This document shows positions 1 to 10,331 of a stretch of DNA of 56,530 nt, in pieces; position 1 is the stretch's first letter, and every line of letters starts with the position of its first letter. The notes beneath the pieces are model-generated. The model was not told the DNA's origin. It ran no database searches and saw only the letters and a program-made list of their open reading frames with translations. Both the position numbers and the translations under genes were made by a program. The stretch lies in the NCBI GenBank assembly GCA_003149565.1, contig QCWH01000022.1:4686-61215 (forward strand), written 5' to 3'. Origin of the DNA: Marivita sp. XM-24bin2. GTDB taxonomy: Bacteria > Pseudomonadota > Alphaproteobacteria > Rhodobacterales > Rhodobacteraceae.

Positions 1-525
1 AGCATCAAGAACGCGACCTCGATCCTCGACTACATCTTCCGCGAACTGGCCGTGTCCTACCTTGACCGGACCGATCTGGCGCATGTGAAGCCCGAGGGTG
101 CCACCTTTGACGATCTGGGCCGCGGTGAGGAAGAGGGCGTGTCGAACGTGAAGGAACTGTCAGACACCGCCGCGTCGAAATCGCTCGAGGTACTCAAGCA
201 GATCAGCTCCACCGGCTACCTGCGCAAGCGTCTTCCGCAGGAACTCATCGTGCTGCAGGGCGGACAGTCCGGCGCGGTGGCCTTCGGCGGAAGCGACGCG
301 GTGGCGGCCCTGAACACATTGGTTCCGGAAACCGGTGGCGTGGCGACGGCGGTGGCAACGACCACAACAACCAGCGCCTCGATCCCGGCGATGACGGCGG
401 TCACACGAGCCAAGATGCAGGGCTACGAAGGCGAAGCCTGCGGCGATTGCGGCAACTACACGTTGGTCCGCAACGGCACCTGCATGAAGTGCAACACCTG
501 CGGCGGAACATCGGGCTGTAGTTGA
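1..525 (+). CDS. nrdJ: Adenosylcobalamin-dependent ribonucleotide reductase, C-terminal part (5' end outside window)
   Basis: Reading frame 1 is open from the first base, so the gene begins upstream and only the last 174 residues are visible. The family (class II RNR) reduces ribonucleotides to deoxyribonucleotides using a B12-derived radical. The visible part has the acidic, repetitive linker typical of the tail of alphaproteobacterial NrdJ, and ends with a cysteine-rich tail: CGDC, then CMKCNTCGGTSGC. These cysteines are the redox-active or zinc-binding tail that re-reduces the active site in this family. The protein implies a need for cobalamin, like two other genes in the next 9 kb. Identification is by the tail and is strong. 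Confidence 0.93.
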   Translation, partial: SIKNATSILDYIFRELAVSYLDRTDLAHVKPEGATFDDLGRGEEEGVSNVKELSDTAASKSLEVLKQISSTGYLRKRLPQELIVLQGGQSGAVAFGGSDAVAALNTLVPETGGVATAVATTTTTSASIPAMTAVTRAKMQGYEGEACGDCGNYTLVRNGTCMKCNTCGGTSGCS

Positions 526-853: not shown

Positions 854-3800
854 TTACAGGTCGATCGTGATCTCACCATCCGGCTTGGCGGCGCGCGACT
901 GACAGAGGATGATCGTGTCCTCGCGCTGCGCTTTGGACAACACGAAATCGCGGTGTTCCACGACACCGCTCAAGACCCGCGCCTTGCATACCCCGCAAAT
1001 CCCGTCCGAGCATTTCAGGTCAACCGTCACGCCGTTGGCGTTGAGAACATCCGTCGCCGTCTGGTCAGCGGGTATATGGAAGGTGCGCCCATCGCTGAGT
1101 CTCAGCGTGAAGGGGTGGTTCTCGTACTCGGGTAATTCCGGCACAGCGAAGTATTCCAGATGTCTTGAATCTTCAGGAAATCCTTTGGAGTCAGCTGCAT
1201 CCATGACAGAGTTCATGTAAATATCAGGTCCGCAGGTATAAATGTGCTGACCGACCGCGTAGTCTGTGATCAACGCATCCAGATCGGCGCGGGTGCCTTC
1301 GTCGCTCACGTGGATATGTACCCTGTCAGCCCAGGGAACATTGGCCAGATCCTCCAGATACCCCGCCTCAGCGCGGGTTTTCACCGAATAGTGCAGTTCA
1401 AAGGGCCGCCGCAGCGCATGCAGCCGGTGCGCCATCGCGATCATCGGTGTGACCCCGATGCCACCGCCCATTAGCCAGCTGAAACTGGCATCCTCAACCA
1501 GCGGGAAATGGTTGATCGGTTTTGACACAAAGACCCGTCGCCCTTCGGCAAAGATGCGATGCAAAAGCGCCGATCCGCCGCGTCCTTGTTCCTCGCGCAG
1601 AACACCGATCTGGTAGACGGACCGATCCGCCGGATCGCCAGACATGGAATATTGCCGCAGGAATTCAGGCGCGACCACCAGATCAAGATGCGCGCCTGCG
1701 GTCCATTCCGGCAGGTCATGCCCGTCGACATGGCGGAATTCGTACTTGGTCACCGTCGGCGACATCTTCTCGACCTTGCTGACCACCACCGGAACCACGG
1801 GGCTTTCGGTGGCGTCCTTGCGGCGATGCAAATGGGATGTGTCGCCCTTGGCGAGCCGCGCCTTATGTTCGTTAGCGCTGACCATCTTGGTATAGGCGTC
1901 GATGCCCGCTTCGCGGTCCATTGGATCCGGGTAGGGGTAGGGATGGGGTGCCAGCGGGGCGGGGTAGACGGCGAGCGTCTGGTCCTCATATTTGAGGTCG
2001 AGGTCCTTTTGCAGGTCGCGGGCGTTGACCGGGTGGTTGGTTGGGGCGTAGCTGCCATTTTCCTGCAACTCCAGGTCCCACCACCATTTCTTGACAGGGT
2101 TCAGCCCCCCGCGTCCCGCCGCATCGTCCAGCTTTGCCAGCAGGGGGGCTGCCTTGGGCACGTTCATCGCCGCCCAGCGGAACGGCTTTTCGGCAAACAG
2201 CCCTTCAAGGTTCCACGGGCAGGTCTTCATGCAGCGTCCGCACATCGCGCCGCCTTCGGTTGTGATGCGGTAGGTGGCGCATTTCTGGCTGTCGGATTTC
2301 CAGATCTCGTAGCCGTTGAACATGAGCTTTGGCCCGGCGGTGATTGCGCCGGATGGGCATTCACGGGCACATTTGTTGCAGCTTTCGCAGAAGGTTTGCA
2401 GGCCGAAATCGATGGGCTTGTCATGGGCGAGCGGCATGTCAGTCGTGACAACACCGGACTTGAGGCGCGGGCCAAGGAACGGGTTCAGGATCACCTCGCC
2501 GATGCGGCTGACCTCGCCCAATCCCGACAGCAGAAGGAGCGGCGGTTGCAGCACCTCACCATCGAGCACGGTATGCGCCTTGGCGGAATAGCCCAGGTTG
2601 CGGATCTGCTTGGCCAAAACACCGCCCAACAGCGAGAACCGCAGATAGGCGCGCATGGATTGCGCCACGCTGATCCAGTCGTCGCCCGAGGCCCCGTCCA
2701 TCGTTTCATAGCCCTGGTCGATGATGATGCTGATCGCCTGATCGTGCGGTGGGTCAATGGGGTCGCCGCGGGCATCGTGGCTGTACCATGTCCAGTCCGG
2801 GCAGCGGCTGATGCCCAACGCATCGACGCCCAGCCAATAGGCGGTGGCTTTGATCGCATCCGCGTTGCTTTGCAAATTTGCAGGGCGTGGGCCGTTTTCG
2901 GGCGGTCCGTCTTGCAATAATACAAAGGCACCCAGCATCCGCCGTTGCGCCGAGGACGGCGCGGCCTTGCGTGCGTAATATCCACCCTTTGCGCCGTCCT
3001 GGAGCTTTTTGCCCATATCGCCGAACTGCGCGCGGGCGAACATGTCGGTGCGTTTGGGCACGCGGGGGACGTTCGGCTCGTCGATATAGGTGGTCGGTTC
3101 CTCGACCCGCTTGAGCGTCTCGAACGGGTGCGGCCCGTCGACATAGCGCCGCGTTTCGAACGGGTCGCCGTTGAGGCCAGACCGCGCCGAGGTTGTGCCG
3201 AGTTTCCACGCAAGGCCGTGGGTCAAGGATTTTGGCTGCTCGGTGGCGAGAGGCGCGTCATGGGCGACGTCAAAGGTCGTCGTCACCACGGCCACGCCAA
3301 AGCGGTCGCCGAGCCACGGATTGACCAACCGTCCGGATGATCCGTACGCCAGACCGGCCGCAACGGTACAGATGTTCAAATCCACATCGGTACTGGTCGC
3401 CGTATGGGCCTTGGCGTCCCATCCAAGCAAACGGATATAGTTGGCGATCACGACAGCTGTCTCGGTCGCGCGTAGACAGGCGCGGTGCGCCTGAGCCTCG
3501 GCAATCCATTCGGTTCCGGTTTCGCCGGGTTTTGGATCGCGCGGAATTTCGTACAGGAACACAAGCGCCGTGTGGTGCCCGTCGATGGTACTGGGCGGCG
3601 CGTCCATCGATTCCTTGAGATCGGCCATGATCATGTCGATGCCCGAGGCGAGTGTTTTGGTCTGGCGGGTCTTAAGATCGTCGGCGAGGCGGTCAATGCC
3701 CGGGTTGAGGCGCGGTTCCGGCAGCAATGCCGCTTGCAGCAGAGGACCGATTCCAACCATTGTCGCATCCGAGAAATATCCAAACGCTTTCAGATGGTTG

Positions 3801-4054
3801 GCGCGCTCTGCTATATCATCCGGACAGGCGGAGCGGGCTTTGTTTACAAACCCATCGCGAATTGCGTCCATCATCGCCTGATATTCGCCCATCGCGTTGA
3901 CGATGGAGGCTGGGTCTTCGGGGCGGTGAAAGCTGAGTCGGGGATGACGCGGGATCGTGGCCGGGTCTGGCATCGGCCCGCGCGCTGCACGCTCCAGCGG
4001 GAACGGCCCAAGGTGCACCGGCCGATTTTTATCGGAAAAGAACCGCAAACCCAT
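854..4054 (-). CDS. rdhA: Self-sufficient (catabolic-type) reductive dehalogenase with fused flavin/2Fe-2S reductase
   Basis: A 1066-residue fusion. The corrinoid-binding RdhA-like region is duplicated. The first copy (about 200-265) and second copy (about 480-545) share the pattern 'lG[WY].AKAHT ... NP[WF]LG.R ... VVTT ... AHD.P', and only the second leads into the iron-sulfur part. Two ferredoxin-type clusters follow: CESCNKCARECPSG (about 553) and CGRCMKTCPWN (about 604). The C-terminal third is a dioxygenase-reductase-like module: flavin motif RQYSMSGDP (about 805), nucleotide motif GGGIGVTPM (about 866) and plant-type 2Fe-2S CSDGICGVC (about 1018). This is the architecture of BhbA and NpRdhA, which take electrons from NAD(P)H to remove halide from halo-phenolics aerobically. 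There is no Tat signal, so it should be cytoplasmic, unlike respiratory RdhA. The start has GGGAGGA 5 bases upstream. Substrate unknown. Confidence 0.9.
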   Translation of the reverse strand: MGLRFFSDKNRPVHLGPFPLERAARGPMPDPATIPRHPRLSFHRPEDPASIVNAMGEYQAMMDAIRDGFVNKARSACPDDIAERANHLKAFGYFSDATMVGIGPLLQAALLPEPRLNPGIDRLADDLKTRQTKTLASGIDMIMADLKESMDAPPSTIDGHHTALVFLYEIPRDPKPGETGTEWIAEAQAHRACLRATETAVVIANYIRLLGWDAKAHTATSTDVDLNICTVAAGLAYGSSGRLVNPWLGDRFGVAVVTTTFDVAHDAPLATEQPKSLTHGLAWKLGTTSARSGLNGDPFETRRYVDGPHPFETLKRVEEPTTYIDEPNVPRVPKRTDMFARAQFGDMGKKLQDGAKGGYYARKAAPSSAQRRMLGAFVLLQDGPPENGPRPANLQSNADAIKATAYWLGVDALGISRCPDWTWYSHDARGDPIDPPHDQAISIIIDQGYETMDGASGDDWISVAQSMRAYLRFSLLGGVLAKQIRNLGYSAKAHTVLDGEVLQPPLLLLSGLGEVSRIGEVILNPFLGPRLKSGVVTTDMPLAHDKPIDFGLQTFCESCNKCARECPSGAITAGPKLMFNGYEIWKSDSQKCATYRITTEGGAMCGRCMKTCPWNLEGLFAEKPFRWAAMNVPKAAPLLAKLDDAAGRGGLNPVKKWWWDLELQENGSYAPTNHPVNARDLQKDLDLKYEDQTLAVYPAPLAPHPYPYPDPMDREAGIDAYTKMVSANEHKARLAKGDTSHLHRRKDATESPVVPVVVSKVEKMSPTVTKYEFRHVDGHDLPEWTAGAHLDLVVAPEFLRQYSMSGDPADRSVYQIGVLREEQGRGGSALLHRIFAEGRRVFVSKPINHFPLVEDASFSWLMGGGIGVTPMIAMAHRLHALRRPFELHYSVKTRAEAGYLEDLANVPWADRVHIHVSDEGTRADLDALITDYAVGQHIYTCGPDIYMNSVMDAADSKGFPEDSRHLEYFAVPELPEYENHPFTLRLSDGRTFHIPADQTATDVLNANGVTVDLKCSDGICGVCKARVLSGVVEHRDFVLSKAQREDTIILCQSRAAKPDGEITIDL

Positions 4055-4110
4055 GATGTCCTCCCATGCGCGTTCCGTCGCGCGATTGCTCAGAGTGCAT
4101 CATTCCCGGG

Positions 4111-4776
4111 TCAGGACTGCAAGGCGTGAAAGTCCTTCAGTGTTTTTCCGACCTCGTCGACAAAAAGACCGGGGAGGGGCGTGAGGTCGGTCACGCGGTC
4201 CATGCGGAATGTGGCGAAGGCTTCGTCAGTTTCGTCCCAAACGACGCAGGTCCAGATGCGGCCCCAATAGTCGAGATGAAGAGGGCGGACTGTGTGGCTC
4301 TGCGCGTCACCTTCCAGACGCAGGCGGAGTTTCTGGCGCGCGCGGATCGCTTTGCGGAACGCGGGCATGTGGCGAAAACCCTGAGCAGCTTCAGCGAAGG
4401 GGTAGGTGGCAAATCCGAACTTGCCGACAGGAGTGCCGACGTCTTCGGGCAGCACCGCGTCAATCTTGTCAGAGAGCGCACGCGCAGCACCTGCGAGGTC
4501 TTCGCTTTCAGAGACACCGATGGCGGCAAGCCCAATATGAAGGGCTTCCAGTTCCTTCTGGGTCAGGTTGAGAGGCGGCAGGGTGATCATTTCCTGCGCA
4601 GTGTAGCCGGCACCGCGCGCGCCCTCGACCGGTACGCCAGAGGCGGCCAGCGTATCCATGTCGCGGTAGATTGTGCGTACGGAGACGCCGAGATCCTGAG
4701 CCATCGCCTCGGCGGTGTGCAGGCGACCGTCCTTCAGGCGCTGCATCAGGGCATAGAGTCGGTCGCTGCGTTTCAT
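4111..4776 (-). CDS. YafY-type HTH/WYL-domain transcriptional regulator
   Basis: 221 residues from the ATG at 4776, chosen because the protein then begins right at the helix-turn-helix (MKRSDRLYALMQRLKDGRL...); a longer in-frame start is unsupported. Residues 1-55 are a DeoR-like winged HTH ('DLGVSVRTIYRDMDTL'). The C-terminal half is a WYL ligand-sensing domain containing LHLDYWGRIWTCVVW and a basic FRMDRV stretch. It lies 56 bases upstream of the dehalogenase gene on the same strand and is divergent from tatA, so it probably controls the dehalogenase and itself. WYL proteins sense small molecules or nucleic acid; the ligand here is unknown. Confidence 0.85.
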   Translation of the reverse strand: MKRSDRLYALMQRLKDGRLHTAEAMAQDLGVSVRTIYRDMDTLAASGVPVEGARGAGYTAQEMITLPPLNLTQKELEALHIGLAAIGVSESEDLAGAARALSDKIDAVLPEDVGTPVGKFGFATYPFAEAAQGFRHMPAFRKAIRARQKLRLRLEGDAQSHTVRPLHLDYWGRIWTCVVWDETDEAFATFRMDRVTDLTPLPGLFVDEVGKTLKDFHALQS

Positions 4777-4805
4777 GTGATTCTCCGTGCTGCGCTGCGT
4801 GAATA

Positions 4806-4845
4806 CTGACAAAAACCTGTCAACTGACAAGCTCTTGACAAAAAC
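4806..4845. promoter_or_regulatory. Repeated TGACA motifs, candidate operator of the WYL regulator
   Basis: Between the divergent WYL and tatA genes, [CT]TGACAAAAAC occurs at 4806-4816 and 4835-4845 (29-base pitch), with an inverted TGTCA-AC-TGACA at 4818-4829 between them. A cluster of direct and inverted copies just upstream of a regulator gene suggests autoregulation. Inference only. Confidence 0.45.
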
Positions 4846-4950
4846 GGCTTGAAATGGCGCGTTTTCGTCCTTTCGCAGCGCGGCGTGAGCCATTACATAA
4901 CCACGGTGGAATTCAACGCAGGCCGTGGCCTGCCGGTAAGGAGAAACTTC

Positions 4951-5172
4951 ATGGGTATCGGAAATATCGGATTGCCGGGCCTCTTGCTCATCGCCGTTGT
5001 GGTGCTGGTGCTGTTTGGCCGTGGCAAGATCTCATCGCTGATGGGCGAAGTGGGCAAGGGCATCACCGCGTTCAAGAAGGGTGTGGACGAAGGCAAGCAG
5101 GAGCTTGAAGAACAGCAAGCCGAAAGCGCGAAAGATGTGACGCCGGAAAGCGAAGAGAAAGACAAGGTCTAA
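4951..5172 (+). CDS. tatA: Sec-independent translocase subunit TatA
   Basis: 73 residues from the ATG at 4951, preceded by AAGGAG at 4938-4943; an upstream in-frame ATG is ignored. It has the short N-terminal transmembrane helix ([16 protein letters not shown]), then the conserved '[23 protein letters not shown]' amphipathic hinge, and an acidic, disordered tail. TatA oligomers form the pore that passes folded, twin-arginine proteins across the inner membrane. First gene of tatABC, 5 bases before tatB. Confidence 0.95.
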
Positions 5173-5177
5173 CACAG

Positions 5178-5630
5178 ATGTTCGATCTTGGCTTTGCCGA
5201 GCTGTTGGTGATCGGGGTGGTGGCGTTGATCGTCGTTGGCCCCAAGGATCTGCCGGTGCTCTTTCGGAAAGTGGGGAATTTCATGGGCAAGGCCCGTGGC
5301 ATGGCCCGCGATTTCTCCCGCGCGATGAATGACGCCGCGGACGAGTCCGGCGTCCGGGACGTGCAGAAGACCTTCAAGACCGCCACCAACCCGCTGGGAA
5401 GCGCGATGGATGGCGTGAAGGATGCAGCCAAATCGATGACCAACATCGATCCTGAGAGCAACACCGGAAAACTGTCCGCCGAACGCGAGGCCGCCAAGAA
5501 AAAGATCGAGGCCAGTGCAGCACGTGCCGCCGCGGACCGTAAGAAACGCGAAGCGGAAGAGGCTCAGAAGAAGGCCGAAGAAATGGAAGCCGCGCTGAAA
5601 GCTGAGCCTGCGCCGGAAAAGGACGCCTGA
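5178..5630 (+). CDS. tatB: Sec-independent translocase subunit TatB
   Basis: 150 residues beginning [26 protein letters not shown], the standard TatB N-terminus with the conserved Glu in the membrane helix and the GP hinge. It is followed by a long amphipathic region and a highly charged Ala/Lys/Glu coiled-coil tail (about 110-150). TatB with TatC forms the receptor for twin-arginine signal peptides. It lies between tatA and tatC, one base before the tatC start. A client in this window is the Tat-signal TRAP binding protein near 19.5 kb. Confidence 0.95.
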
Positions 5631-5631
5631 G

Positions 5632-6585
5632 ATGAGTGCCCGCGACGACGACATCGAGGATAGCAGCGCACCGCTGATCGAGCATCTTGCCGAACTGCGC
5701 ACCCGGCTGATCCGCTCGGTGCTGGCGCTTTTCATTGGCATTTGTGTGCTGTTTATTCCGATACAGGGCGATTTCCTGTCCGAGCATGTTTTGCGTTTTC
5801 TCCTTGTTCCGATTGAAGATACGCTGCGTGCTCTGGGTGACCCGGCGCCGACGCTTCAGTACACCAGCCCGCAGGAATACCTGTTCGTGCTGTTCCGCAT
5901 CGGTCTCGTGTTCGGCTTCGCACTGGCCTTCCCGGTGATCGCACACCAAATGTGGCGCTTTATTGCGCCGGGGCTCTACAAGTCCGAGAAATCGGCCTTC
6001 CTGCCATTCATCATTGCGTCGCCTGTGATGTTCATGGCGGGCGCGGCCTTTGCGCATTTCATTGTGACACCCCTTGCGATGGCGTTCTTTCTTGGGTTCA
6101 CCGACGCGCCGTCGCTGTTTGCAAACCTGCTTTCGGAATCCGTGGATGTGGACCCGACCGCCGTTGTGCCCGCGACAAACGAAGGATTGAAGATCACCTT
6201 CTTTGGTAAGGTGAACGAGAGCCTTCAGACCTCTTTGGTGTTCATCACGGCCTTCGGGCTGTGTTTCCAGTTGCCGGTTTTGCTGACGCTGATGGGCAAG
6301 GCGGGGCTTGTCTCGGCTGATGGCCTGGGCAGCGTGCGCAAATACGCCATGGTGGCTATTCTGGTGCTGGCCGCCTTGGTGACGCCGCCGGATGTTGTGA
6401 CTCAGTTGATCCTCTTTACAGTGGTGTACGGGCTTTACGAGGTGTCGATCATTCTGGTCCGTCGCGTGGAGAAGAAGCGCGAGAAAGAGTTGAGGGCGCA
6501 AGGCCTCTGGTTCGAGGATGATCCAGCAGAGGGCATGGAGGACGATCCTCTGATGAAAGAATTCGACGAGGACGCGAAGAAGTGA
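5632..6585 (+). CDS. tatC: Sec-independent translocase subunit TatC
   Basis: 317 residues, a six-helix membrane protein with the N-terminal 'PLIEHLAELRTRLIRS' signature that binds the twin-arginine motif. It is longer than the usual 250-260 residues because of an insertion of about 40 residues in a periplasmic loop (around 163-200) and a charged C-terminal extension. Both are common in alphaproteobacteria. It completes tatABC. The stop overlaps the GTG start of the next ATPase gene by one base pair step (GTGA), which suggests coupled translation. Confidence 0.95.
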   Translation: MSARDDDIEDSSAPLIEHLAELRTRLIRSVLALFIGICVLFIPIQGDFLSEHVLRFLLVPIEDTLRALGDPAPTLQYTSPQEYLFVLFRIGLVFGFALAFPVIAHQMWRFIAPGLYKSEKSAFLPFIIASPVMFMAGAAFAHFIVTPLAMAFFLGFTDAPSLFANLLSESVDVDPTAVVPATNEGLKITFFGKVNESLQTSLVFITAFGLCFQLPVLLTLMGKAGLVSADGLGSVRKYAMVAILVLAALVTPPDVVTQLILFTVVYGLYEVSIILVRRVEKKREKELRAQGLWFEDDPAEGMEDDPLMKEFDEDAKK

Positions 6586-7629: not shown

Positions 7630-8712
7630 TTATGCGCGGCGGCGGCGGCCACCTGTGCGGCCTTCGCGGCCACGGCCTTCGTGACCGGCTTTCGGTGGCT
7701 GACGGTTGAACGCAATCCAGGCACCACCGCCGTCGTCGTTGTTGGTGAGGAAGTTCGCCGCTCGGATCGCTTCCATCTCTTTGCCGGGGCGCGGCTTGGT
7801 GGAGCCGAGACCAAAGAGTGTGCAGAAGGTTTCGTCGTCCATGTCTTCGGGCAGCACGATCCCCGCAGCGGCCACCTCGGCGCGCTTTTCGGCGATCTTG
7901 GTGGCTCCAACGGGCAGGGCGACCGGGTTCATGATGGCAGAGGTCATACCCGCGCCCATTGCCATCGGCAGGAAGGCATTGTTAATGCCGTGACGGTTCG
8001 GCAAACCGAAGCTGATGTTGGACGCGCCGCAGGTGGTGTTCACACCCAGTTCTTCGCGCAGACGACGAACGAGCGTGAAAACCTGAAGACCGGCGGTGCC
8101 CATTGCACCAATCGGCATGACAAGCGGATCGACCACAATATCATGCGCCGGGATGCCGAAATCAGCGGCACGCTCCACGATTTTCTTGGCGACGGCAAAA
8201 CGGACATCGGGGTCCTCGGAGATACCTGTGTCGTCGTTCGAGATCGCCACAACCGGCACGTTGTATTTCTTGACCAGCGGCAGAACCATCTCAAGCCGCT
8301 CTTCTTCACCCGTGACCGAGTTCAGGAGCGGACGGCCTTCGGCGGCGGCGAGACCGTTTTCCAAGGCACCGGGCACGGACGAGTCGATGCAAAGTGGGCA
8401 ATCAGTGACAGCCTGGACCCGTTCGACCAGTTCCTTCATCAGCGTCGGCTCGACAAAGTTGTTGTCGGCGTAACGGGGATCCTCGGCCATCTTATTCGAG
8501 AAGACAGCACCGGAATTGATGTCGAGGATGTTTGCACCCGCGGCGACCTGTGCCAGCGCGTCAGCCTCCACCCGGCTGAAATCGCCGCGCTCCAGCTCTT
8601 CGTTCAGGATCTTGCGGCCCGTCGGGTTGATGCGTTCGCCGATCACACAGAACGGCTGGTCGAACCCGATGATGGCGGTTTTGGTCTTCGACTCGACAAT
8701 CGTGCGGGTCAT
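7630..8712 (-). CDS. Methyltetrahydrofolate:corrinoid methyltransferase (pterin-binding domain protein)
   Basis: 360 residues with a single pterin-binding TIM barrel: 'VIGERINPTGRKIL' at the N-terminus, 'ANILDINSGAV', 'PLCIDSSVPGALE', 'NSVTGEEERL' and 'GASNISFGLPNR'. This corresponds to the folate domain of MetH or to AcsE/MtgA-type enzymes moving a methyl group between tetrahydrofolate and a corrinoid protein. Roseobacters commonly carry MetH split into separate genes, and this may be one piece; no corrinoid-binding partner is in the window. The last 20 or so residues are an Arg/Gly-rich tail (GHEGRGREGRTGGRRRR), unusual for the family. It overlaps the HAD gene by 4 bases. Confidence 0.85.
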   Translation of the reverse strand: MTRTIVESKTKTAIIGFDQPFCVIGERINPTGRKILNEELERGDFSRVEADALAQVAAGANILDINSGAVFSNKMAEDPRYADNNFVEPTLMKELVERVQAVTDCPLCIDSSVPGALENGLAAAEGRPLLNSVTGEEERLEMVLPLVKKYNVPVVAISNDDTGISEDPDVRFAVAKKIVERAADFGIPAHDIVVDPLVMPIGAMGTAGLQVFTLVRRLREELGVNTTCGASNISFGLPNRHGINNAFLPMAMGAGMTSAIMNPVALPVGATKIAEKRAEVAAAGIVLPEDMDDETFCTLFGLGSTKPRPGKEMEAIRAANFLTNNDDGGGAWIAFNRQPPKAGHEGRGREGRTGGRRRRA

Positions 8713-9377: not shown

Positions 9378-10304
9378 TCAGCTTGCGTCTGCGGGAGCTG
9401 TGCCAGCACCACCGTTTTCGATCGCCCAATTGGCGTTGGTTTTGATGCCGCCCAGCGGGAAGAAATGCACCTGTTCAATGTTGAACTCAGGGTTCTTGGC
9501 TTTGTGCGCGGCCAGTTTGCTCAGCACCTCTGTCGGCTCGTAGGGCAGGAGCAGCTTGGACACGTCCATGGCGCGCTTTTGCAGAACCTTGAGCGACGGG
9601 CCGACACCGCAAGCGATGGCGAACTTGATCAGGGTCTGCAGCTTGGCGGGACCGGCGATACCGATATGCACCGGCAGCTTGATGCCGGCAGCGGACAGGT
9701 CGTCGACCCATTTGATGATCGGGTCGGCGTCGAACGCGAACTGCGTCGCCAGCGCCATCTTGGCGTCGGTGCGTTCCGAGAACGCCTGCTTCCAGCGCAG
9801 CGCGTCTTCGACGTTTTTCATACCGCCTTTCGGATCGATATCCTTGTTACCCTCGGGGTGGCCTGCCACGTGCAGACGCTTGAAGCCCGCCTTGTCGAAA
9901 AGACCGGTTTCCATCAGCTGCATGGAGCTGTGAAAATCTCCATGCGGTTGGGCAACGCCACCGGCGAGCAACAGAGCCTGATCGACACCGGCTTCGCCCT
10001 GATAGCGGGCAATCCAATCGGCCAGTGTCGCTTCATCCTTGATGATCCGCGCCGGGAAGTGCGGCATGACCGGGTAGCCTTCATCCGCCAGACGCTTTGC
10101 AGTGGCCACCATGTCTTCGATGGGGGTGCCTTCGATATGGGCGATGTAGACACGCGTACCCGGAGCCAGCAGCGTGCGGAAATCTTCGACTTTTTCAGCC
10201 GTGCGCGGCATGACCTCAATCGAATAGCCCTTGAGAAATGCTTCCATCTCGGGCGTGGTGCCGTTTTCGACGGTTTCGCGCTTGCGGAAATTCAACAATG
10301 CCAT
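9378..10304 (-). CDS. metF: Methylenetetrahydrofolate reductase family protein
   Basis: 308 residues from the ATG at 10304, preceded by GAGGGAGG; an ATG 21 bases upstream lacks such a site. It is an FAD-dependent TIM barrel: 'TRVYIAHIEGTPIEDMVATAKRL', 'VMPHFPARII', 'DQALLLAGGVAQPHGDFHSS', 'HVAGHPEGN', 'KMALATQFAFDADPII' and 'PVHIGIAGPAKLQTL' match the MetF fold. MetF makes 5-methyl-THF, the substrate of the methyltransferase encoded just downstream. It lies 27 bases after the small 98-residue gene and 9 bases before the HAD gene, so all four probably form one operon. Confidence 0.85.
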   Translation of the reverse strand: MALLNFRKRETVENGTTPEMEAFLKGYSIEVMPRTAEKVEDFRTLLAPGTRVYIAHIEGTPIEDMVATAKRLADEGYPVMPHFPARIIKDEATLADWIARYQGEAGVDQALLLAGGVAQPHGDFHSSMQLMETGLFDKAGFKRLHVAGHPEGNKDIDPKGGMKNVEDALRWKQAFSERTDAKMALATQFAFDADPIIKWVDDLSAAGIKLPVHIGIAGPAKLQTLIKFAIACGVGPSLKVLQKRAMDVSKLLLPYEPTEVLSKLAAHKAKNPEFNIEQVHFFPLGGIKTNANWAIENGGAGTAPADAS

Positions 10305-10331
10305 GATGGCCTCCCTCAGGGTCATGGGGGC

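Follow-up and report, generated by a model that had tools for sequence, protein, structure and literature searches.

A predicted self-sufficient reductive dehalogenase in Marivita sp. XM-24bin2 and its relatives in marine Rhodobacteraceae

The gene rdhA of Marivita sp. XM-24bin2 (assembly GCA_003149565.1) encodes a relative of the reductive dehalogenases with a reductase at its C-terminal end, and it raises the question of whether such a protein removes halogens using its own electron supply, from which compounds, and to what end. We analysed positions 4,686 to 61,215 of contig QCWH01000022.1, forward strand, a stretch of 56,530 nucleotides that we refer to as the window and to which coordinates apply unless a genome or locus handle is given. 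Protein sequence and analogy with characterised enzymes suggest, with a probability of about 0.86, that the product is a cytosolic, self-sufficient catabolic reductive dehalogenase, likely acting on ortho-halogenated phenols of the 4-hydroxybenzoate type that carry bromine or iodine.

The gene and the domains of its product

A listing of open reading frames (ORFs) of at least 100 amino acids in the window includes a frame of 1066 codons that starts with ATG and runs from 4054 to 854 on the minus strand. A sequence-only reading had recognised a 1066-residue RdhA-like protein here without naming the strand, and database searches agree with it: the NCBIfam reductive dehalogenase model TIGR02486 scores 191.1 bits against a cut-off of 160.35, with its best stretch at residues 438–647, and the best solved relative in a Protein Data Bank (PDB) search is NpRdhA (E 1e-158). 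No other gene of the genome assembly exceeds the TIGR02486 cut-off. In pairwise comparisons with four close relatives, whose nucleotide sequences are 76 to 86% identical to it, the nonsynonymous rate dN is 0.04 to 0.13 and the synonymous rate dS 0.74 to 1.17, giving dN/dS of about 0.05 to 0.12; since dN is well under dS, the protein is under purifying selection. The rdhA of the window is an intact gene.

The fused flavin, NAD and 2Fe-2S reductase of the sequence-only reading is also present, with phthalate dioxygenase reductase (PDOR; PDB 2pia) matching residues 757–1065 (E 2.7e-50) and the Pfam model Fer2 scoring 39.3 bits against a cut-off of 21. Within this module are RQYS at residues 800–803, which we take to be the flavin motif, GGGIGVTP at 863–870, presumably marking the NAD(P) site, and the 2Fe-2S motif CSDGICGVC at residue 1015; Cys 1051 is invariant in 42 aligned sequences. 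The two expected 4Fe-4S motifs are CESCNKCARECP at residue 556 and CGRCMKTCP at residue 605, with an additional Cys at 592, and two Pfam 4Fe-4S double-cluster models exceed their cut-offs. A second TIGR02486 match at about residues 82–274 (31.1 bits, below the cut-off; E 3e-7 in the genome) indicates a duplicated N-terminal corrinoid domain, and an AlphaFold model, used for fold matching only, aligns structurally with NpRdhA from residue 1 or 2. This half contains an insertion relative to NpRdhA, placed with an alignment in which NpRdhA residues 99–111 are X. A motif search, with no signal-peptide program run, found no twin-arginine (RR) pair in residues 1–60, in line with the earlier statement that the protein has no twin-arginine translocation (Tat) signal; the Tat signal peptide is a feature of respiratory reductive dehalogenases. 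Judged by its sequence, the protein is a catabolic reductive dehalogenase fused to a PDOR-like module, and neither QueG nor a respiratory enzyme.

In NpRdhA, PMC7565698 assigns S422, K488 and R552 to holding the substrate hydroxyl and Y426 to giving the proton. S422 aligns with S466 of the window protein, and the other three residues also have their equivalents (Table 1). We aligned 86 proteins, comprising the window protein and those of the best 80 related loci and of five plasmid loci; S466, Y470, K532, R596, F339, M467, the eight 4Fe-4S Cys and Cys 1015, 1020 and 1023 are unvarying in 86/86. When 20 more distant proteins were added (53 to 70% identical, picked mostly for low identity), the catalytic Tyr, Lys and Arg were retained in all 106 sequences.

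Relatives and gene neighbourhoods

A scan of genome contigs gave 578 stretches encoding relatives, and our study covered the 80 best of these, at 70 to 93% identity. By record titles, 64 of these best 80 of 578 are from Rhodobacterales, Rhodobacteraceae, Paracoccaceae or genera that we assigned there, 11 from Hyphomicrobiales or groups that we assigned there (Oricola, Ahrensia, Aquibium, Nitratireductor, Rhizobiaceae), and five are recorded as Alphaproteobacteria only. The nearest relatives among them in a tree are Marivita proteins and one bin nesting among these; NCBI taxonomy places Marivita as a genus of Roseobacteraceae. In a sample of 394 genomes of the family, source genome counted, matches at E ≤1e-60 occur in 161. 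Of these, 149 reach E=0, including at least five with partial coverage; the remaining 12, with E values from 1e-137 to 1e-60, may represent fragments or the lone reductase module. A sample of the class (385 genomes) gave 31 matches at E 1e-100. Nine of these are full-length at E=0 (the source genome, four others of its family and four from three other families), and the best matches of the other 22 fall within residues 152–782, the dehalogenase part. From the two samples together, the fused form is therefore frequent in the source family and present in other families. The gene is not rare, and it is common in marine Rhodobacteraceae. Two further loci were noted: short dehalogenase-like frames of 438 and 451 amino acids lie 53 bp apart in another alphaproteobacterial family (G690:C1:2322175-2323410 and 2323464-2324753), and a dehalogenase-like match at G585:C151:32057-33394 holds one in-frame TGA.

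We mapped the neighbourhoods of 77 of the 80 loci (L027, L033 and L083 were left out). Homologues of both immediate neighbours in the window, the WYL regulator and the ribonucleotide reductase, were found near rdhA in nine loci only, all of the Marivita group, with tatC in five of those; outside this group the neighbours mostly differ. A reading of the window as a whole operon was ruled out on this limited sharing, and the neighbourhood in the window is silent on substrate. The ribonucleotide reductase ORF is a C-terminal piece, matching the last part of NF005736 with 114.2 bits, below the whole-protein cut-off. Further from rdhA, tatA, tatB and tatC lie at 4849-6585 on the plus strand (tatB and tatC over their cut-offs, TatA just below), a proximity that looks coincidental because the dehalogenase lacks an RR motif. 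A methyltetrahydrofolate:corrinoid methyltransferase-type protein is encoded at 7630-8712 (minus strand; NF005719, 394.5 bits, cut-off 259), and 9378-10325 (minus strand) matches methylenetetrahydrofolate reductase weakly (26.4 bits, below cut-off); we take such genes in roseobacters to belong to a split methionine synthase.

Neighbourhoods of relatives are more informative. Counting the plasmid loci, PobA homologues are found within the stretch searched in 5 of 85 loci. TIGR02360 confirms pobA in L029, L055 and L060 (636 to 677 bits, cut-off 538.7); it overlaps the rdhA start by one base in L029 and lies about 10 bp after rdhA in L055 and L060. The other two are at 5.6 kb (L080) and at 3.4 kb on the opposite strand (L085). 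These make at most four independent cases, L055 and L060 being sister branches of the tree, against a chance expectation of about 0.3 by a rough hand estimate that ignores relatedness (1.13 Mb of flank, one pobA per genome of about 4 Mb). The listings from literature searches among open-licence papers showed no description of an rdhA–pobA link. In L020 paaZ lies about 0.12 kb upstream of rdhA and paaK at 5.6 kb, in L060 paaK is at 1.6 kb and paaZ at 3 kb, and on a plasmid of Nitratireductor sp. OM-1 rdhA is beside genes annotated as pobA and protocatechuate 3,4-dioxygenase. In L040, L044 and L065, tripartite transporter genes of the DctM type (Pfam scan made for that of L065) terminate 18 to 57 bp ahead of rdhA and are a candidate uptake system for a halogenated acid. 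A bromobenzyl-alcohol route, considered for L029 and L030 on the basis of an upstream GMC oxidoreductase and aldehyde dehydrogenase, was rejected: the GMC protein of L029 is the choline dehydrogenase BetA (843.6 bits, over cut-off). Upstream genes in 11 loci resemble, on our assumption, 5-oxoprolinase (PxpABC), and were treated as background.

The source genome itself has pobA (623 bits, over cut-off), a protocatechuate dioxygenase alpha gene (pcaG-like, 211 bits, over cut-off) about 3 kb from it on the same contig, and paaZ (994 bits), none of them beside rdhA. With pobA and the dioxygenase present, 4-hydroxybenzoate released by dehalogenation could therefore be used. As to the corrinoid, cobQ is present (417 bits, over cut-off), and the B12-dependent ribonucleotide reductase adjoining rdhA points to B12 use by the host irrespective of the dehalogenase. 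Salvage of incomplete or complete corrinoid may be the simplest reading of its supply. Genes for corrin synthesis that were not detected could also lie on missing contigs, the assembly being 96.27% complete in 116 contigs. A PF02514 match was rejected as cobN, since this model by itself cannot separate bchH from cobN and the gene (G000:C46:25968-28949, L092) scores 2021 bits, above the cut-off, as the magnesium chelatase bchH. The host is therefore probably a producer of bacteriochlorophyll.

Table 1. Location of rdhA, of the parts of its product and of adjoining features in the window
Feature	Position	Strand	Basis
Reductive dehalogenase gene (rdhA)	854..4054	-	ORF listing, TIGR02486, PDB match to NpRdhA, alignment
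N-terminal vestigial corrinoid-domain half, residues 1 to ~300 (borders approximate)	3155..4054	-	weak second TIGR02486 match; structural alignment to NpRdhA
Insertion relative to NpRdhA, residues ~104-158, also in BhbA	3581..3745	-	alignment
Catalytic corrinoid half, residues ~394-550 (borders approximate)	2405..2875	-	TIGR02486 best stretch 438-647; alignment
Y470, equivalent of NpRdhA Y426, predicted proton donor	2645..2647	-	alignment; role from PMC7565698
K532, equivalent of NpRdhA K488	2459..2461	-	alignment; PMC7565698
R596, equivalent of NpRdhA R552	2267-2269	-	alignment
Two 4Fe-4S sites, Cys 556, 559, 562, 566, 592, 605, 608, 612	2216..2389	-	motif search, alignment
PDOR-like module, residues ~752-1066: flavin and NAD(P) domains, then 2Fe-2S ferredoxin	857..1801	-	
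RQYS, residues 800-803	1646..1657	-	motif search, alignment
GGGIGVTP, residues 863-870	1445..1468	-	motif search
Plant-type 2Fe-2S ferredoxin Cys 1015, 1020, 1023, with 1051	902..1012	-	Pfam, motifs, alignment
GGGAGGA, Shine-Dalgarno-like	4059..4065	-	four bases 5' of rdhA ATG
HTH_11/WYL-domain transcription regulator, candidate regulator, 57 bp upstream of rdhA	4111..4893	-	homologue near rdhA in 9/77 mapped relatives
C-terminal end of vitamin B12-dependent ribonucleotide reductase, convergent neighbour, outside the dehalogenase system	52..525	+	NF005736

Predicted reaction and alternative explanations

By homology to NpRdhA and to JtRdhA of Jhaorihella thermophila, we infer the cofactors, the electron route, the chemistry and the preference for bromine and iodine. 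NAD(P)H would pass hydride to a flavin, by analogy flavin mononucleotide (FMN), in the C-terminal module, and a base-off corrinoid would receive the electrons singly by way of the 2Fe-2S ferredoxin domain and both 4Fe-4S clusters. The substrate, an ortho-halogenated phenol, is predicted to lie above the cobalt, where S466, K532 and R596 would hold its hydroxyl; the halogen would depart as cobalt-bound halide, with the proton coming from Y470. The neighbourhoods of relatives point to the substrate class: the enzyme would likely act on 4-hydroxybenzoate or 4-hydroxyphenylacetate carrying bromine or iodine, or on similar phenols that arise naturally in the sea, and dehalogenated 4-hydroxybenzoate would then go to PobA and protocatechuate dioxygenase.

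Several observations weigh against this assignment. The AlphaFold model (42 sequences, 41 of them relatives 71 to 93% identical to the query) has a mean predicted local distance difference test score (pLDDT) of 69.1 and a predicted template modelling score (pTM) of 0.59, and pLDDT falls below 50 at residues 501-530 and 551-620, where clusters and corrinoid bind. PF13486, the Pfam Dehalogenase model, is not among the families of the protein up to E 1, and a search of the genome with it gave zero matches, a result that is uninformative because the model found nothing in control genomes either. Neighbours shared with the window were found only in the Marivita group, pobA is not near rdhA in the source genome, and 80 of 85 loci have no PobA homologue in the fetched stretch, which spans 5 kb on both sides in only 58 of 85. 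Corrin synthesis models TIGR02257 (CobN) and TIGR01467 (CobI/CbiL) gave no match above the cut-off in the source genome, only weaker ones, in a search that covered these and CobQ among the pathway and transport genes; the two models exceed their cut-offs in 5/14 and 4/14 control genomes. Finally, the substrate is not safely transferable because the pocket residues differ from those of NpRdhA and BhbA.

At the pocket positions of NpRdhA F290, F310, A419 and N452 the window protein has M, Y, V and V, the two Val being V463 and V496, and BhbA F, S, S and A. Among the first 83 proteins (window, L004-L083, L086 and L087) positions 310 and 452 are fixed and 290 and 419 nearly so. A four-position signature was dropped once the 20 distant proteins were included: 290 and 419 vary, five have His at 310, and only Val at 452 stays near-universal. 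Over all 106 sequences, Val is at 452 in 104 (all but BhbA and the protein from the plasmid of Nitratireductor sp. OM-1), Tyr or His at 310 in 104, and Val at 419 in 95. Val at 452 is a candidate determinant of the bromine and iodine preference. We tentatively suggest that the fused enzymes of Rhodobacteraceae and some Hyphomicrobiales might form a subfamily tuned to these halogens and marked by Val 452, Tyr or His 310 and mostly Val 419.

The same chemistry could instead serve detoxification or salvage of halotyrosine, bromophenol or iodinated metabolites rather than growth on halobenzoates, with the WYL regulator sensing stress. This variant, which does not exclude the reading above, would fit the lack of any aromatic catabolism gene seen adjacent to rdhA in the window and close relatives, the position of a WYL regulator upstream, and the occurrence of a widespread gene among mostly different neighbours, as expected for a stand-alone function. 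The pobA or paa genes adjoining rdhA in several relatives argue against it, as do the pobA and pcaG-like genes of the source genome, and we regard it as possible but rather doubtful. Dechlorination alongside debromination seems unlikely: the catalytic residues are identical to those of NpRdhA, which reduces chlorinated compounds, but JtRdhA, with the same fused architecture, was only inhibited by those tested (PMC10463259 for both), and NpRdhA F310, A419 and N452 are replaced by Y, V and V.

That the protein is an epoxyqueuosine reductase or another corrinoid protein is extremely improbable. The QueG model TIGR00276 does match, but with 23.4 bits against a cut-off of 200, and the actual QueG of the genome (440.5 bits) is encoded elsewhere, on contig C18 (L095). 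A QueG-like match with loss of the catalytic Tyr, Lys and Arg was what the sequence-only reading had thought would count against it; instead the dehalogenase model exceeds its cut-off, NpRdhA is the best solved relative, and Y470, K532 and R596 are present. The evidence supports that reading as right on the protein and close on function, with substrate and activity as its inferred parts. It had no means of knowing that this arrangement has been characterised before, in JtRdhA (PMC10463259), and is widespread in the family.

As a predicted catabolic dehalogenase of bromo- and iodophenols, the window protein alone adds little beyond JtRdhA; what is added is how frequent the gene is in the family, its links to pobA and paa genes in some relatives, and the Val at 452. 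The sea is rich in natural bromophenols and related compounds, and with E=0 matches in 149 of 394 sampled genomes of one family, the gene would turn aerobic B12-dependent dehalogenation into a background process there. If the proposed subfamily is real, NADPH-driven aerobic debromination into the protocatechuate route would be a general trait of marine Rhodobacteraceae rather than a specialty of pollutant degraders, and corrinoid-salvaging hosts, maybe including the source genome, would depend on the B12 of their neighbours.

Comparison with known systems

The reductase module is of the same kind as phthalate dioxygenase reductase (2pia) and as that of self-sufficient cytochromes P450 (6kbh, 6laa), all of which serve oxygenases and have nothing else in common with the window protein. 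A dehalogenase from a roseobacter, Ros_A3X954 (Roseobacter sp.), is described in PMC13101508 as a catabolic RdhA without Tat signal that debrominates 2,6-dibromophenol. Its 4Fe-4S motifs lie at 283-294 and 337-345 and each enzyme carries about 8 Fe, so that, unlike the window protein, it appears to be short and unfused. Its activity is lost in oxygen.

Both relatives named by the sequence-only reading, BhbA and NpRdhA, are homologous, and the comparison holds for the whole architecture in BhbA but not in NpRdhA. NpRdhA of Nitratireductor pacificus (4ras, 6zxu) shares the corrinoid and 4Fe-4S part with 42.8% identity; it has no fused reductase, according to PMC10463259, and is without most of the insertion near residues 104-158. 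BhbA, encoded on plasmid pBHB of Comamonas sp. 7D-2 (L084), has the same domain order over its full length, 49.5% identity, and the catalytic and cluster residues, and differs in its annotated neighbours: on its plasmid, which is conjugative, it stands near transhydrogenase genes and one for a tripartite tricarboxylate transporter protein. The NAD(P) transhydrogenase genes follow bhbA (L084 12298-15156) and would fit a need for NADPH.

JtRdhA was compared by its published description. PMC10463259 (2023) describes an FMN-containing, NADPH-driven marine enzyme active in air, with 3,5-dibromo-4-hydroxybenzoate and 3-bromo-4-hydroxyphenylacetate as best substrates and iodinated phenols as good ones, and with homologues in Ruegeria pomeroyi, Pseudovibrio and Tropicibacter (Figure 1 legend). 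As far as that description goes, the two proteins are alike in the full-length RdhA–PDOR fusion, the lack of a Tat signal, the duplicated cobalamin domain, the insertion over the active site, the catalytic Tyr, Lys and Arg, and a marine host of the order Rhodobacterales. The window protein thus belongs to an architecture already described in BhbA and JtRdhA.

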